From Longimicrobium sp. (lineage in GTDB: Bacteria > Gemmatimonadota > Gemmatimonadetes > Longimicrobiales > Longimicrobiaceae), in assembly GCA_036389795.1 (NCBI GenBank), contig DASVWD010000239.1, positions 1 to 43,655 of the forward strand: a stretch of DNA of 43,655 nt, in the 5' to 3' direction. The position numbers were made by a program, and so were the translations under genes. The notes below the pieces were generated by a model. It had not been told where the DNA came from, did no database searches, and saw only the letters and a list, made by a program, of their open reading frames with translations. Each line of letters opens with the position of its first letter. Within the stretch, counting starts at the first letter, position 1. Shown one piece after another: positions 23,006-32,953 of this stretch.

Positions 23006-24361
23006 ATGGGTCCTCTTGCTCACGAGCTGGAAGCGGACGGGGCGCAGCTCCCGCGCCTGTTCCGCGAGCGCCTCCTGCAGCAGAGCATCGAGCACGCGCG
23101 CACGCGGGTGCCCGCGTACCGGCGGCTGCTGGCCGAGGCCGGCGGCGTGAGGCGGCTGGAGGATCTCGCGGCGCTTCCCATCACCGAGAAGCAGGCGCTC
23201 TTCGACTACCCGGAGGCGTACCGGGCCGAGGACCTCGATACGGCCCTGGTGCAGAAGACCAGCGGCACCACCGGCAAGCGCCTGGAGATGCATCGCAGCT
23301 CGGCCGAGGTCGAGTTCATCCACGGCTTCTTCAGCCAGGTCCTCGACCGCGCCCCCGGGGCGCAGCAGCCGATCTGCGTCAACCTGGTGCTGGGCTGCAA
23401 CGGGCCGCCGCTGCCGGTCCCGTACCCGGGGCCCAGCCTGAGCGTGGACCTGACCGACCCCGCCTGGATCGAGCGGGCCGAGACCCTCGCCGCGGCGCCC
23501 TGGCTCCTGTGCGGCACGGAGCCGCGCCCGGCGGTGGTGGCCGGCCTGGAGTCGCAGCTGCGGATCCTGACGCTGCTGCTGGCGGAGCGGGGGTTCGACT
23601 GGTCCCGGAGCGCGGTGCGCTCGCTGGTCTCGTGCGGCGACCTCCTGACCGCTCGCCTGCGCCGCCTCTACGAGACGACGTGGGGCGTGCCGGTGCACGA
23701 CCGCTACGGGATGACCGAGATCTTCGGCGGCGCGAGCCCCTGCCCCGCCTGCTCGAGGTGGCACTTCGATTGCTTCGTCGTCCCCGAAGCCGTCGATCTT
23801 CGCGCGCGCCAGCCGATCCGCCGGGGAGTCGGCGCGCTTCTCCTCACCTCGCTCGTCCCGTTCGTGCAGAAGCAGCCGCTGGTCCGCTACTGGACCGGGG
23901 ACCTGGTCGAGTTGCACCCCGGCTGCCCCGTGGACGACTTCGGCTTCAGCATCAAGGGCAGGCTCGTGCGCAGCGTGGTGGCCGAGGAGGAGGCGGGGGC
24001 GGTGGTGCTGCTGACCGCGGCCGACGTCTACGACGCGCTCGACGACTTCCCGGAAGTTGCGTCGAGCGAGATGTTCCGGCACGTGCCCGTGCGGGACCAC
24101 TCGGCGCTGGGGCACCTGAAGTTCCGGCTCGAGTCGTCGAACGGCGCCGGGCGCACGCACGTCCGGCTCCTGGTGGAGCTGCGCCATCCCCCGGAAGCCC
24201 GGCCCGAGCACACCCGCGCGCTGCTGGAGCGCATCCGCGGCGCCGTGATCGCGCGACACCCAGAGTTGGCATCCCGCCTCCACGACGGATCGGTCGAGTT
24301 CGCGGTGGAGGCATCCCCGCCCGGCACGCTGACGTCGTTCCTTCCCGACGAAGTCGAGTAG
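23006..24361 (+). CDS. PaaK-like adenylate-forming enzyme
   Basis: A 451-residue ANL-type enzyme of the phenylacetate-CoA ligase/CapK group, activating a carboxylic acid as its adenylate. The P-loop is KTSGTTGK (84-91), the core motif RYGMTEIFGG is at about 233-242, and YWTGDLVELHPGC follows near 295. Cys246, Cys249 and Cys256 with His253 (SPCPACSRWHFDC) look like a metal-binding loop. The N-terminal part HARTRVPAYRRLL...LEDLAALPITEK is typical of the family. It is shorter at the C-terminus than full CoA ligases in which a lysine-bearing lid is easy to find, so the second half-reaction is uncertain. First gene of a compact four-gene cassette, 58 bases before the small protein gene. Confidence 0.88.
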   Translation: MGPLAHELEADGAQLPRLFRERLLQQSIEHARTRVPAYRRLLAEAGGVRRLEDLAALPITEKQALFDYPEAYRAEDLDTALVQKTSGTTGKRLEMHRSSAEVEFIHGFFSQVLDRAPGAQQPICVNLVLGCNGPPLPVPYPGPSLSVDLTDPAWIERAETLAAAPWLLCGTEPRPAVVAGLESQLRILTLLLAERGFDWSRSAVRSLVSCGDLLTARLRRLYETTWGVPVHDRYGMTEIFGGASPCPACSRWHFDCFVVPEAVDLRARQPIRRGVGALLLTSLVPFVQKQPLVRYWTGDLVELHPGCPVDDFGFSIKGRLVRSVVAEEEAGAVVLLTAADVYDALDDFPEVASSEMFRHVPVRDHSALGHLKFRLESSNGAGRTHVRLLVELRHPPEARPEHTRALLERIRGAVIARHPELASRLHDGSVEFAVEASPPGTLTSFLPDEVE

Positions 24362-24419
24362 GCCGGGAAAGCGGCGTCCGGCACGTGCCGGCACCCGAAC
24401 CGCGCAGCGGAGGTGACCC

Positions 24420-24614
24420 ATGAAGAACCCAGCCGCCGGCCGTTCCGTCCACCTGACCGAGGAGACGCACCGCGAGCTCGCCGACCTGTACCGGCGCATC
24501 TCCAAGCTGGGCGACCCCAGGCTGGCCCAGCTGGTGGTGGCGGAGGCCGTGATCGCCCGGGCGGTGCGGGACTCGGCGGCCATCGCCGCGGCGATCGCGC
24601 AGACCTCCCTCTGA
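24420..24614 (+). CDS. 64-residue small protein between adenylating enzyme and radical SAM genes
   Basis: Not recognised. It has the best ribosome-binding site in the window, GGAGGTGA six bases from ATG 24420, implying high protein output. The sequence has a possible short strand (RSVHLTEETH) followed by two helices (RELADLYRRISKL and RLAQLVVAEAVIARAV) and an Ala-rich end AAIAAAIAQTSL. Two readings fit: (1) a ribbon-helix-helix-like regulator, by the strand-helix-helix order; (2) a peptide substrate or carrier for the flanking enzymes, by position and strong translation. It has no Cys, Ser cluster or GG site that would prove a RiPP precursor. The radical SAM start codon comes 2 bases after its stop. 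Confidence 0.85.
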   Translation: MKNPAAGRSVHLTEETHRELADLYRRISKLGDPRLAQLVVAEAVIARAVRDSAAIAAAIAQTSL

Positions 24615-24616
24615 GC

Positions 24617-25540
24617 GTGGAGACGTCCCTGCCGGTCGCGCGCGCGTCGCCGGAGGCGCGCGTGTGGGTGTGGGTCGACGCGGCGGCCGTGTGCAACCTG
24701 TCGTGCGCCCATTGCTACACGGCCTCGATGCAGGCGGCCGCGGTCATGGCGCTCGACACCTTCCGGCGGGTGGTGGGCCGGCTGGCCGGGAGCGGGCTCC
24801 GGGTGCAGCGCTTCCACCTCAACTGGCGGGGCGAGCCGCTGGCGAACCGGGCCCTGCCGGAGATGCTGCGCCACCTGGCCGAGGCGGCGCCGGAGTGGCC
24901 GGTGGAGTGGCACACCAACGGCACCCTGGTGACGCCGGAGCGCGCGGAGCGCCTGCTGGCCGCCCACCCCGCGCAGCGCGTCTACGTCTCGCTGGACGGG
25001 GGGAACCGCGCCAGCTTCGAGCGCAACCGCGGGGAGGGCGCCTGGCGGCGCGCGCTGGCCGGCGCGGAGGCCCTCCTGGCGGCCCGCCCGCGCGGCGCGG
25101 GGCCGGAGGTCGGCATCTACCAGCTCGACCTCGGCGTCCCGCCGGAAGAGTACGACCCGCGCTTCCTGGAGCTGGCGCGCGCGGCGGACGTCCACACCGT
25201 GGTGAAGCCGGTGCACACCGACGGCGGGCCGCTGGTGGGGCTCCGGCGGCTGCCGCGCGGCCCCTGTTTCTGGCTCGGCCACACACTGGCCGTGGACACC
25301 TCCGGGGGCGCGCACACCTGCCTCCTCTCGGGCGGGAGCGCGCTGGGCTCGCTGCTGGAGGAGCCCGTGGAGACGCTGCTCGGGCGGGCCCGGGCGCTCC
25401 GCCAGGCCGTCGTGGACGGGGGGCGGTCGCGGGTGCCGGGGTGCGCCGGGTGCTTCAAGGAAGAGGGCGCGCCCGCGGCGGAGGCTCCCTCCGCCGCCGG
25501 CGTCCCCGCCCGTCCCGCGCTGGCCGCGGCGGGCGCGTGA
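24617..25540 (+). CDS. Radical SAM enzyme with twitch/SPASM-type cysteines
   Basis: A 307-residue radical SAM protein. The [4Fe-4S]-SAM motif is CNLSCAHC (Cys26, Cys30, Cys33). Further barrel features are NWRGEPLAN (GEP in place of GGE), EWHTNGTLV and YVSLDGGNRASFERNRG. The C-terminal part carries Cys217, Cys235, Cys276 and Cys279 (GPCFWLGH, AHTCLLSGG, PGCAGCF), enough for one auxiliary cluster of the twitch type, as in BtrN-like dehydrogenases and some peptide modifiers. An Ala-rich tail follows. GTG 24617 starts 2 bases after the small protein stop, and the end overlaps the aminotransferase start as GTGA. Reaction and substrate are unknown; oxidation or epimerisation of a small molecule or of the small protein are both possible. 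Confidence 0.92.
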   Translation: METSLPVARASPEARVWVWVDAAAVCNLSCAHCYTASMQAAAVMALDTFRRVVGRLAGSGLRVQRFHLNWRGEPLANRALPEMLRHLAEAAPEWPVEWHTNGTLVTPERAERLLAAHPAQRVYVSLDGGNRASFERNRGEGAWRRALAGAEALLAARPRGAGPEVGIYQLDLGVPPEEYDPRFLELARAADVHTVVKPVHTDGGPLVGLRRLPRGPCFWLGHTLAVDTSGGAHTCLLSGGSALGSLLEEPVETLLGRARALRQAVVDGGRSRVPGCAGCFKEEGAPAAEAPSAAGVPARPALAAAGA

Positions 25541-26730
25541 CGGTGGACGGCCCTCCGCGGTTCACGCACGGGAGCGGCGTGCTGCTCTTTGACGCCGCGG
25601 GCAACACGTACCTCGACCTGCTGTGCGAGTGGGGGGTGGCGCCGCTGGGGTGGAACCCGCCCGAGGTGGTGCAGGCGGTGGCCCGCTCCCTGGCGGAGAA
25701 CAGCTTCGCGGCCCGGCACTGGGCCGGCGACCTGGGCGACCGGCTGGCCGCCGAGCTGCGCGCCGGGCTGGGGCACGAGGGGTACGCGGTCTTCCCCGCG
25801 CTCAGCGGCTCCGAGGCCGTCGACATGGCGCTGCGCATCGCCCGCAGGGCCACGGGGCGGCCCGGAGCGCTGTACCTGGGCGGCGCGTACCACGGGAGCA
25901 CGCTGGCCGCCCGGGCCGCGTGCGGCGTGCGGGGGTGGGTGACGGAGGAGGAGCGCGGCGGCTTCCCGAACGTCGAGATCCCGGTCGGGCCGGGCGGGGA
26001 GATCGACCTGGACCGGGTGGAGCGGGAAATTCGCGCCGGCCCCGGCCTCGGCTGCCTGATCCTGGAGCCGCTGCGGGCGAACGCGGGCTTCGTCGCGCTC
26101 GACCCGGCGCGGATGCGGGGGCTGCGGGCGCTCTGCCGGGAGCACGGCCTGCTCTTCATCGCGGACGAGATCACGGAGGCGCCGGCGCGCTGCGGGGTGT
26201 GGTGCGGGATGCACCACTTCGGCGAGCAGGCGGACGTCCTGCTCCTGGGGAAGTCGCTCTCGGCGGGCGTGTTCCCGATCGCGGCCGTGGCGGTCGCCCC
26301 CGAATTCGCCCGCTTCGCCGAGGCGCCGGGGTTCTTCTCCACCTTCGCGTGGACGCCTCCCGCCTGCGCGGGCGCGCTCGCCACGCTCGAGGTCATCTCG
26401 TCGCGCGACCTGGTGGAGAGGGCGCGGCGGCTACGGGCCCAGGTGGAGGACCAGCTGGAGGAGATCCGGCGGTTCCCGGGGGTGACGGCGGTCGCCGGGA
26501 TGGGGATGGGCTTCGGCATCGGCGTGCGCGAGGACGGCCGCAGTCCGCCGGTCCGGGTGGAGCTGGCCCGCCGGCTGCGCCTGCGCGGCGTCATCGTCGG
26601 GCCGAACCCCAACCTCCCGGGGCTGGTGCTGATGCCGCCGCTCACCATCGAGCTCGCGGAGCTGCGCAGGGGGCTGCAGGCGATCCTGGAGGTGATCGCG
26701 AGCGCGCCCGACGGCGGCGTGGTCGCCTAG
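25537..26730 (+). CDS. Class III PLP-dependent aminotransferase
   Basis: A 397-residue fold-type I aminotransferase of the acetylornithine/GABA/glutamate-semialdehyde branch. PLP-binding Lys239 lies in LLLGKSLSAGVFPIAAV and the pyridine-nitrogen Asp210 in IADEITEAPARCG; a phosphate-binding segment SGSEAVDMALR and YHGST are present. The usual DEVQTGxGRTG is altered to DEITEAPARCG, so the acceptor-side pocket differs from common members. It is the last gene of the cassette and overlaps the radical SAM gene by four bases. A transaminase after a radical SAM oxidase would fit conversion of an alcohol to a ketone and then to an amine, as in aminocyclitol pathways, but this is only an inference. Confidence 0.92.
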   Translation: MTVDGPPRFTHGSGVLLFDAAGNTYLDLLCEWGVAPLGWNPPEVVQAVARSLAENSFAARHWAGDLGDRLAAELRAGLGHEGYAVFPALSGSEAVDMALRIARRATGRPGALYLGGAYHGSTLAARAACGVRGWVTEEERGGFPNVEIPVGPGGEIDLDRVEREIRAGPGLGCLILEPLRANAGFVALDPARMRGLRALCREHGLLFIADEITEAPARCGVWCGMHHFGEQADVLLLGKSLSAGVFPIAAVAVAPEFARFAEAPGFFSTFAWTPPACAGALATLEVISSRDLVERARRLRAQVEDQLEEIRRFPGVTAVAGMGMGFGIGVREDGRSPPVRVELARRLRLRGVIVGPNPNLPGLVLMPPLTIELAELRRGLQAILEVIASAPDGGVVA

Positions 26731-26749
26731 ATCCGGGGAACTTCAGGCC

Positions 26750-26812
26750 TCACGCAGAGTCAGCAGAGTGAGCGGAGAACCCCTCCGCTGACTCTGCTGA
26801 CTCTGCGTGCTG
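26750..26812. repeat. Palindromic repeat family A, copy 3; likely two-way terminator
   Basis: A 27-bp stem with one mismatch: arms 26751-26777 and 26783-26809, loop of 5 bases. Arms begin CACGCAGAGTCAGCAGAGT. It lies between the convergent aminotransferase and outer-membrane genes and is followed by GTCTTTTT on the plus strand, so it could end transcription of the cassette. Confidence 0.85.
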
Positions 26813-26835
26813 AAAGTCTTTTTCCGGTCCCGGGA

Positions 26836-30833: not shown

Positions 30834-31223
30834 GTGAGCCACGAAGCCCCTGCCGCGCTGAGCCGGCGCGAGCGCCAGATCCTGGACGTGCTGTACCGCC
30901 TGGGCCGCGCGACGGCCGCGGAGGTGACGGCCGAGCTGGACGACGCGCCGACCTCCACCACCGTGCGCGGGCTGCTGCGCATCCTGGAGGAGAAGGGGCA
31001 CGTGCGGCACGAGCAGGACGGCCTTCGCTACGTCTACCTCCCGGCGGTGCCGCGCGAGGACGCGGGGGTGTCGGTGCTGTCGCACGTGCTGAAGACCTTC
31101 TTCGAGGGCTCGCCGGCGCGGGCGATGGCGGCGCTGCTGGGCTCGCGCGCCGACGGCCTCACCGGGGCCGAGCTGGAGCGGCTGGCGCGCATCGTGGAAG
31201 ACGCGCGCAGGGAGAGCGCATGA
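30834..31223 (+). CDS. BlaI/MecI-family transcriptional repressor
   Basis: A 129-residue winged-helix repressor. The N-terminal domain (about 8-80) shows LSRRERQILDVLYRLGRATAAEV and STTVRGLLRILEEKGHVRHEQDGLRYVYLP, the BlaI/MecI/CopY recognition helix and wing. The C-terminal helical part mediates dimerisation and in the family is cut by the partner M56 protease; a clear Asn-Phe cleavage site is not visible. The GTG start at 30834 follows an AT-rich promoter with operator-like dyads. Its stop overlaps the M56 gene (ATGA). The next gene after M56 is a class C-like serine hydrolase with a matching operator, so it is the likely target along with the operon itself. Confidence 0.93.
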   Translation: MSHEAPAALSRRERQILDVLYRLGRATAAEVTAELDDAPTSTTVRGLLRILEEKGHVRHEQDGLRYVYLPAVPREDAGVSVLSHVLKTFFEGSPARAMAALLGSRADGLTGAELERLARIVEDARRESA

Positions 31224-32953
31224 GCCCCGCCCTCGCCTTCCTGCTCGGCGCCACCGCCAGGGCGTCGCTGGTGGTCGCCGCCGCGGGGCTCGCGGCGGTG
31301 ATGCTGCGGCGCGCCTCGGCCGCGGTCCGGCACGGCGTCTGGGCTGCGGCGCTGCTGTCGCTCCTCCTCCTCCCCGCCCTCTCGCTCGTCCTGCCCGCCT
31401 ACCGCCCGCCCGCCGCCGTCGTGGAGCGGCTCGCCGGGCTGCGGCCGCGCGCCGCGGCGGGTCCCGTCGCCGATGCCGTGCGGCCGGGCGGAGCGAGGCG
31501 GACCGACGATCCGGCGATCTTCGGCGGGGAGGATGGCCCGATGCCGTCCCGCCCGCCCGTCGATCCGGGGACCGTCGTCGTCGCCGCCTGGATCGCGGGG
31601 TTCCTGCTGGTCGCGGGGCGGGCGCTGCGGAGCCGGCTGGCGGCGCGGGGGCTGGTGGCGCGCGCGCGGCCGGTGTCGGAGTGGACCGCCGTGCTGCCGC
31701 GGGGCGTGCGGCTGCTGGAGAGCGGCGAGGTGGCGGCCCCGGCGGTGGCGGGGATCTTCCGCCCGGCGGTGCTGCTGCCTCCCGGCGCGGCGGCGTGGCC
31801 GGAAGAGCACCGGCGCGCCGTGCTGGCCCACGAGCTGGCGCACGTCGAGCGGCGCGACGTGCTGACGGACCTGCTGGCGCAGGCGGCGTGCGCGCTGCAC
31901 TGGTTCAACCCGCTCGCCTGGATCGCCGCGCGGCGGCTGGCGGCGGAGCGCGAGCGCGCCTGCGACGACCGCGTGCTGGCGGCCGGCGTGGAGCCGCTCG
32001 GCTACGCCACGGTGCTGCTGGAGGCGGCGCGGGCGTCGCTCGCCGCGCGCGCGGCGGCGGCCGGGACGCTGGCGATGGCGCGGCCGTCGGAGCTGGAGTC
32101 GCGCTTCACCGCCCTGCTCGACCCCCGGCGCCGCCGCGGCCCGCTCTCCCGCCGCGCCCGCGCCGCGCTGGCCTGCTGCGCCGCGCTCTTCCTCCTCCCC
32201 CTCGCCGCCTTCCGCGCGGAGCCGGCGCCCTCTCCCGCCCGCGAGCCGTGGACCGGCCCCGCCGCGACCGCCGCGGCGCCGACGGCGCGGAGAGCGCCGG
32301 CCGCGCGGCGGGAGACGACGAGCGCCGCCGTCCAGCACGCCGACGCCGACCAGCCACTCGTCATCACGGACCAGGACTCGCTGCTGGACCCGGAGAGCGA
32401 GCGGGTGGCGCTGCCGTACGAGCGGCTGGCGGCGCGGGCGGCGGCGGTCCCGGCGGCGGGGCCGGACGCGCGCGCCATCGCCGCGCTGCAGGCGGAGCTG
32501 GACCGCGTGTCGCGGGGGCCCGGCGACCTGGTGCGCGAGCGGGCGATCTGGGCGCTCACGCAGGTCCGCGGCGGCCGCCTGGTGGAGCCGCTCCTCGAGA
32601 AGCTCGGCGACGCCGACTGGAAGGTCCGCGCGTACGCCGCGTGGGGGCTGGCCGTCGCCGGCGACCGGCGCGCCACGGCGCCGCTGATCCCGTTGCTCCG
32701 CGACCCCGTCTGGCGCGTCCGCGCGATGGCCGCCGCCGCGCTGGTCGACCTGGGCGACCCCGCCGCGCGCGACGCCATGGTGGCCGTGATCGCCGACCCC
32801 GCCTGGCAGGTGCGCATCAGCGTCGTCCACTACCTGGAGCGCTCCGGCAGCCCCGACGCCCTCGCGCAGTTGCGTCCCCTGCTCTCCGATCCCCACGCCG
32901 GCACCCGGCTGACCGCCGAGGCCGCCGCCGCCCGCCTCTCCGGCCGCCGTTAG
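31220..32953 (+). CDS. M56 (BlaR1-like) membrane metalloprotease with C-terminal HEAT repeats
   Basis: A 577-residue membrane protein. N-terminal membrane helices (about 8-28, 38-60, 117-136) surround a zinc protease domain with HELAH (204-208) followed by WFNPLAWIAARRLAAERERACDDRVL, the M56/BlaR1 signature. A further membrane helix (about 310-335) leads outside. The C-terminal sensor is not a penicillin-binding domain as in BlaR1: it is a run of HEAT-like helical repeats (about 420-577, with RERAIWALTQV, KVRAYAAWGLAVAGD, RVRAMAAAALVDLGDPAARDAM, QVRISVVHYLERSG). The signal may therefore be a protein or peptide. Coupled by ATGA to the repressor gene. Confidence 0.92.
   Translation: MSPALAFLLGATARASLVVAAAGLAAVMLRRASAAVRHGVWAAALLSLLLLPALSLVLPAYRPPAAVVERLAGLRPRAAAGPVADAVRPGGARRTDDPAIFGGEDGPMPSRPPVDPGTVVVAAWIAGFLLVAGRALRSRLAARGLVARARPVSEWTAVLPRGVRLLESGEVAAPAVAGIFRPAVLLPPGAAAWPEEHRRAVLAHELAHVERRDVLTDLLAQAACALHWFNPLAWIAARRLAAERERACDDRVLAAGVEPLGYATVLLEAARASLAARAAAAGTLAMARPSELESRFTALLDPRRRRGPLSRRARAALACCAALFLLPLAAFRAEPAPSPAREPWTGPAATAAAPTARRAPAARRETTSAAVQHADADQPLVITDQDSLLDPESERVALPYERLAARAAAVPAAGPDARAIAALQAELDRVSRGPGDLVRERAIWALTQVRGGRLVEPLLEKLGDADWKVRAYAAWGLAVAGDRRATAPLIPLLRDPVWRVRAMAAAALVDLGDPAARDAMVAVIADPAWQVRISVVHYLERSGSPDALAQLRPLLSDPHAGTRLTAEAAAARLSGRR

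Follow-up and report, generated by a model that had tools for sequence, protein, structure and literature searches.

The window analyzed here is a 43,655-nucleotide stretch of a Longimicrobium sp. genome (GenBank assembly GCA_036389795.1, contig DASVWD010000239.1, positions 1 to 43,655), and at positions 23006-26730 it carries a compact cassette of plus-strand genes for an adenylate-forming enzyme, a protein of 64 amino acids (aa), a radical S-adenosylmethionine (SAM) protein and an aminotransferase:

23006-24361, plus strand: PaaK-like adenylate-forming enzyme of an uncharacterized clade, 451 aa (TSGTTG, YGMTE and YWTGDL motifs; Cys-x2-Cys-x3-His-x2-Cys loop)
24409-24416, plus strand: Shine-Dalgarno site GGAGGTGA preceding the 64-aa gene (8-base match)
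24420-24614, plus strand: helical protein of 64 aa that belongs to no known family and is proposed to serve the adenylating enzyme as carrier or partner (codon score, ribosome-binding site, structure model, weak similarity to a Roseibium protein)
24617-25540, plus strand: twitch/SPASM radical SAM protein, BtrN-like, GTG start, 307 aa (alignments, profile against the PDB, model)
25537-26730, plus strand: class III aminotransferase dependent on pyridoxal phosphate, GTG start, 397 aa (PF00202 match; tree)

The intergenic gaps are exactly 58, 2 and -4 bases in cassette order, reproducing the coordinates and tight spacing of four plus-strand genes reported in a preliminary description of this DNA; the short gaps and the overlapping stop and start codons suggest a single transcript with coupled translation. 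That description took the enzyme families as established, which holds for the radical SAM protein (PF04055, 54 bits) and the aminotransferase (PF00202, 202 bits), both above cut-off, but less well for the adenylating enzyme, whose best models are PaaK-like and whose AMP-binding score of 23.5 bits lies under the cut-off of 29.9.

The 64-aa open reading frame (ORF) is a credible gene, beyond what chance would produce. Its codon score, 0.455, falls in the usual range of in-frame coding windows and exceeds that of 99.3% of off-frame windows, its GC content at codon positions 1, 2 and 3 is 0.73, 0.50 and 0.97, and a closed ORF this long arose in only 153 of 2000 shuffles of the gap. Upstream of 24420, GGAGGTGA matches the anti-Shine-Dalgarno complement over 8 bases, the longest match among the 23 window starts tested, in line with the earlier proposal that this gene has the strongest ribosome-binding site in the window; such a site fits a protein required in stoichiometric amounts. 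Beginning the radical SAM protein further upstream, at 24413, would lengthen it to 375 aa, but this start was discarded because it overlays the small gene in a frame with a non-coding codon score. Weak matches to the 64-aa protein in the genomes of the relatives were dismissed as chance (inside long ORFs, E 0.003 or worse), and a search of plasmids returned no relatives.

The small protein contains no Cys, no Trp and a single Tyr, and its single-sequence AlphaFold2 monomer model places helices at residues 14-28 and 33-63 (mean pLDDT, the predicted confidence score, 78.6). Foldseek gave no significant match of this model to the PDB, and Pfam no match at E up to 1, with neither an acyl carrier protein domain nor a ribbon-helix-helix profile among the results. 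It seems unlikely to us that the protein regulates its own operon as a ribbon-helix-helix factor and has no role in catalysis. Read as sequence, RSVHLTEETHRELADL resembles the strand and helix of that fold, and a ParD antitoxin chain matches the model weakly in a second structural comparison (Z 3.1; the strand dimer of the fold cannot show in a monomer model). The second helix, however, is about 31 residues long, a possibly related 60-aa protein from Roseibium lacks the strand segment, and the empty Pfam and Foldseek results likewise argue against such a regulator, although a fold family missing from structural search results is no proof. The similarity to the Roseibium protein is itself weak (p about 0.005-0.009, a single-pair figure against shuffles).

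Judged from profiles and alignments, the radical SAM protein is BtrN-like, with BtrN as its closest solved relative by profile. BtrN is a twitch dehydrogenase, its auxiliary cluster ligated by four cysteines, that converts the aminocyclitol alcohol 2-deoxy-scyllo-inosamine to an amino-ketone (PMC9012708). In alignments of 22 and 18 sequences the radical SAM motif CX3CX2C (C26-x3-C30-x2-C33) is nearly invariant, and the four C-terminal cysteines noted previously (C217, C235, C276 and C279), which align with BtrN, are invariant. Compared with the PDB, the 22-sequence profile placed BtrN first (E 8e-16), covering both the core and the twitch including these four cysteines, followed by BlsE (E 1.3e-11, core only) and then by peptide maturases (best 2.2e-8) and MoaA. 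The AlphaFold2 model (pLDDT 86.7) has its core starting about 15 residues from the N-terminus; its top VIA match is BtrN 4m7t (Z 19.7 over 232 residues, 3.2 A), and Foldseek ranked BlsE first and BtrN third.

Relatives of the radical SAM protein, at 31-54% identity, were found in Actinoplanes, a Sporichthyaceae metagenome-assembled genome, many Alphaproteobacteria, Burkholderia and a flavobacterium, and amino sugars are the common theme of their gene neighborhoods. In Croceicoccus, Bradyrhizobium and Burkholderia, an NlpC/P60-like gene and one encoding 136 aa lie ahead of the radical SAM gene, a class III aminotransferase gene follows it, and a family 2 glycosyltransferase is encoded nearby. 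A DegT aminotransferase lies directly upstream in Stappia, where it is closest to nucleotide-sugar aminotransferases (PseC/DesI-like), as well as in Chelatococcus, Bosea and a Sphingopyxis, and the Sporichthyaceae locus also holds one. Directly downstream, about 14 alphaproteobacterial loci have an AnmK gene-cluster member (the one AnmK tested, from Stappia, scores 480 against an NCBIfam cut-off of 352), and in Actinoplanes the radical SAM gene overlaps at its end with a gene for an AmgK-like kinase (82 bits, the AmgK cut-off being 550).

These neighborhoods bear on whether the cassette encodes a pathway for a ribosomally synthesized and post-translationally modified peptide (RiPP), in which the 64-aa protein would be a precursor modified by the radical SAM enzyme and the aminotransferase, while a carboxylate would be activated by the adenylating enzyme. 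Such a pathway, which we consider improbable, would suit a small neighboring gene with a very strong ribosome-binding site, a radical SAM fold equally near peptide maturases and BtrN, and the Glu/Ala-rich small proteins and S8 peptidase that accompany relatives of the adenylating enzyme in Rhizobium and Aminobacter. Yet no small precursor-like gene stands beside the radical SAM gene at its closest relatives (loci L062, L042, L057 and L065), and none was seen at L051, where the upstream flank is only 323 bases. Co-occurrence of the small protein with the radical SAM gene, which the preliminary description had suggested as a check, was not found: other genes stand in that place in the two closest relatives (52-54% identity) and in the three with a class III aminotransferase. 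Further points against a RiPP are the lack of a leader-binding domain (RRE or PqqD-like) by Pfam in the four proteins, although many RiPP systems have no detectable one, the early start of the radical SAM core, and the absence of Cys and Trp and single Tyr of the would-be precursor.

Other features of the radical SAM loci were observed in passing. An alphaproteobacterial gene cluster (L052-L069 and L043) combines the radical SAM protein, DegT aminotransferase and AnmK with a SufE-like protein, a pair of ThiF-like proteins, carriers of MoaD-like and ThiS-like type with a terminal GG, a class III CoA-transferase, an acyl-CoA dehydrogenase-like protein and TIM-barrel proteins, and is perhaps a pathway for a sulfur-containing amino sugar. 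The Sphingopyxis radical SAM copies at L044:8007-8675, L071 and L072 have no N-terminal CX3CX2C part, adjoin a large gene annotated in L044 as a Tn3 transposase, and are probably truncated. Downstream of the Actinoplanes radical SAM and AmgK-like genes, L062:9766-10692 encodes a 309-aa protein that resembles a D-Ala-D-Ala carboxypeptidase by eye and has no Pfam match at 1e-5.

The aminotransferase carries the motif DEITEAPARCG, as described earlier, but the alteration spares four class III motif residues (D-E, R and G), and the sequence also has SGSEA, YHG and the lysine of GKSLSAG, so the enzyme looks catalytically ordinary. An 11-row tree with a small outgroup sample places it, with support 100/99, among the aminotransferases linked to radical SAM genes in Croceicoccus, Bradyrhizobium and Burkholderia, at only about 30% identity to the three. 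Daptide biosynthesis likewise combines a small protein with an aminotransferase of class III, the daptide enzyme acting on a RiPP; the aminotransferase here, however, reaches 137.7 bits against the daptide model NF041821 (cut-off 450), and the daptide enzyme set is not one of radical SAM and PaaK-like proteins.

The adenylating enzyme shares adenylate-forming motifs, size and a Cys/His loop with PaaK-like ligases and the DVU_1553 family, but falls far under the equivalog cut-offs (81 bits against NF045666, the DVU_1553 family AMP-dependent ligase, cut-off 300; 49 bits against TIGR02155, the PaaK phenylacetate-CoA ligase, cut-off 646) and differs in being paired with a small helical protein. 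Its loop had been called unusual; it is indeed present, as CPACSRWHFDC, but is not unique, a C-x6-H-x4-C lying at the equivalent position in PDB 4r1l, a Bacteroides-type phenylacetate-CoA ligase. Full-length relatives at 28-30% identity are encoded by Roseibium, Rhizobium, Aminobacter and Mesorhizobium plasmids and by a single Rhizobiales genome. In Roseibium (60 aa), Rhizobium (88 aa), Aminobacter (83 aa) and the Rhizobiales genome (96 aa) the enzyme gene has a small gene upstream of it in the same orientation, and all four small products are Ala-rich and helical by eye. Those from Rhizobium, Aminobacter and the Rhizobiales genome contain SEA/EAA repeats and are clearly related to one another, their kinship to the 64-aa protein not being clear, and a Streptomyces relative of the enzyme is preceded by a 68-aa gene of doubtful kinship. 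The four lineages that combine the adenylating enzyme with a small Ala-rich protein have no such radical SAM protein there.

A small gene of this kind is missing beside the radical SAM relatives but present beside those of the adenylating enzyme, so the 64-aa protein is most likely a partner of the adenylating enzyme, as a carrier or scaffold, and is probably not the radical SAM substrate. Among the roles first offered for it (substrate, carrier or regulator), that of carrier or partner is supported by the Ala-rich neighbors of the adenylating-enzyme relatives, whereas that of substrate is not favored. A bolder and rather doubtful version is that the enzyme covalently loads its substrate onto the small helical protein, which would be a new type of carrier, and that this ligase-carrier module is reused in unrelated pathways, as in the Rhizobiales loci, and here with a BtrN-like radical SAM/aminotransferase pair. 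LysW-type amino-group carrier proteins are small dedicated carriers loaded by an ATP-dependent ligase, and the likeness extends only to this idea of a ligase-loaded small carrier, the cassette ligase being PaaK-like.

The Rhizobiales loci with an EA/SEA-repeat protein (83-96 aa) upstream of a PaaK-like enzyme (L048:9459-12762, L049:9174-14372 and L078:406-3463) look like an undescribed pathway in their own right. An S8 peptidase gene is joined by deazapurine-type genes in Rhizobium and by a beta-RFAP synthase-like gene in Aminobacter, a combination that would be consistent with a compound being released from a peptide.

The cassette joins two modules that occur separately elsewhere and is not one conserved unit. 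A scan for radical SAM relatives across 84,980 species genomes, using a pattern that detects only those retaining conserved stretches, identified 24 loci, none of them with a relative of the adenylating enzyme, and the whole genomes of eight yielded only two distant adenylating-enzyme matches. Nine congeners and 51 other relatives gave no match to the radical SAM protein over its full length (seven weaker matches cover the core only), and 395 genomes of the phylum contain only distant PaaK-like proteins as matches to the adenylating enzyme (E 1e-16 or weaker). When genomes were sampled from the orders of Burkholderia and Actinoplanes, the radical SAM gene was matched in the centre genomes only; no adenylating enzyme was found in the Actinoplanes order, in a search without a positive control there. 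Viral contigs held no relatives of the adenylating enzyme, the radical SAM protein or the small protein, phage records held none of the radical SAM protein, and we did not find this four-gene combination described in the literature. In four congeners GH15 and Omp85 genes lie side by side with the cassette absent; the far side of this site is not collinear, so that the ends of an insertion are not defined.

Absence of conserved synteny had been named beforehand as an argument against a functional cassette, and synteny of all four genes was indeed found in no other genome searched; each half-module is conserved separately. Two horizontally acquired modules could have come to lie adjacent by chance and act independently, as their separation at every other locus found and the absence of the cassette from congeners would allow; the gaps of 58, 2 and -4 bases and the overlapping stop and start codons, which suggest one transcript and coupled translation, make this quite unlikely in our view.

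The original view that the cassette is biosynthetic is supported, and we favor, at a probability of about 0.45, the reading that it makes or decorates a small metabolite of amino-sugar or aminocyclitol type. The twitch radical SAM enzyme, using SAM, would oxidize a ring hydroxyl to a ketone, with the four-Cys auxiliary [4Fe-4S] cluster as electron acceptor, a step suggested by homology to BtrN and by gene context. The product of the overlapping class III aminotransferase gene would then turn the ketone into an amine, much as in butirosin biosynthesis, where an aminotransferase acts on the ketone formed by BtrN. More tentatively, the PaaK-like enzyme may adenylate a carboxylate and, using the helical 64-aa protein as its own carrier or scaffold, attach an acyl part to the amine or hold an intermediate.

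The butirosin enzyme (PDB 4m7s, 4m7t) resembles the cassette protein in its radical SAM core and four-Cys twitch, in the adjoining aminotransferase gene and in the amino-sugar genes beside relatives, but the window aminotransferase is class III, not DegT, and no aminocyclitol synthase gene is seen near the cassette. No cyclitol synthase was called among the 23 window proteins scanned with Pfam, and no synthase-specific model was run genome-wide. The cytosylglucuronate decarboxylase BlsE (PDB 7vob) shares the radical SAM core and acts on a sugar nucleoside, but its profile match is confined to the core and it catalyzes a decarboxylation.

Several observations weigh against an amino-sugar or aminocyclitol product. 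Identity to BtrN is only 14-18% in structural alignment, and the peptide maturases ChlB, SkfB and anSME, at Z about 19, tie with BtrN; structure is therefore no guide to a sugar or peptide substrate, and the sequence profile and gene context decide. Next to the cassette, the window shows neither a sugar kinase nor a glycosyltransferase nor a dedicated transporter, and AnmK in this genome sits on another contig. The complete cassette was found in no other genome among those searched, including the nine congeners; the small gene follows the adenylating enzyme here and precedes it elsewhere, and the small proteins are barely alike in sequence across lineages.

The genes around the cassette are ordinary and not obviously linked to it: a cupin, a beta-propeller protein and a periplasmic binding protein are encoded upstream, and a convergent Omp85 gene downstream. 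Between the cassette and Omp85, at 26740-26815, lies a long near-perfect inverted repeat (CACGCAGAGTCAGCAGAGT ... ACTCTGCTGACTCTGCGTG), a candidate terminator or mobile-element remnant. Further along, at 30834-32953, a BlaI-type penicillinase repressor gene overlaps that of a BlaR1-type M56 peptidase with HEAT repeats.

If the favored reading is correct, the cassette would tie a radical SAM/aminotransferase route to an unexplored module of ligase and small protein, and would point to amino-sugar metabolites beyond the usual producers. It also raises a testable general question, namely whether the tiny Ala-rich proteins encoded beside PaaK-like ligases are carriers.

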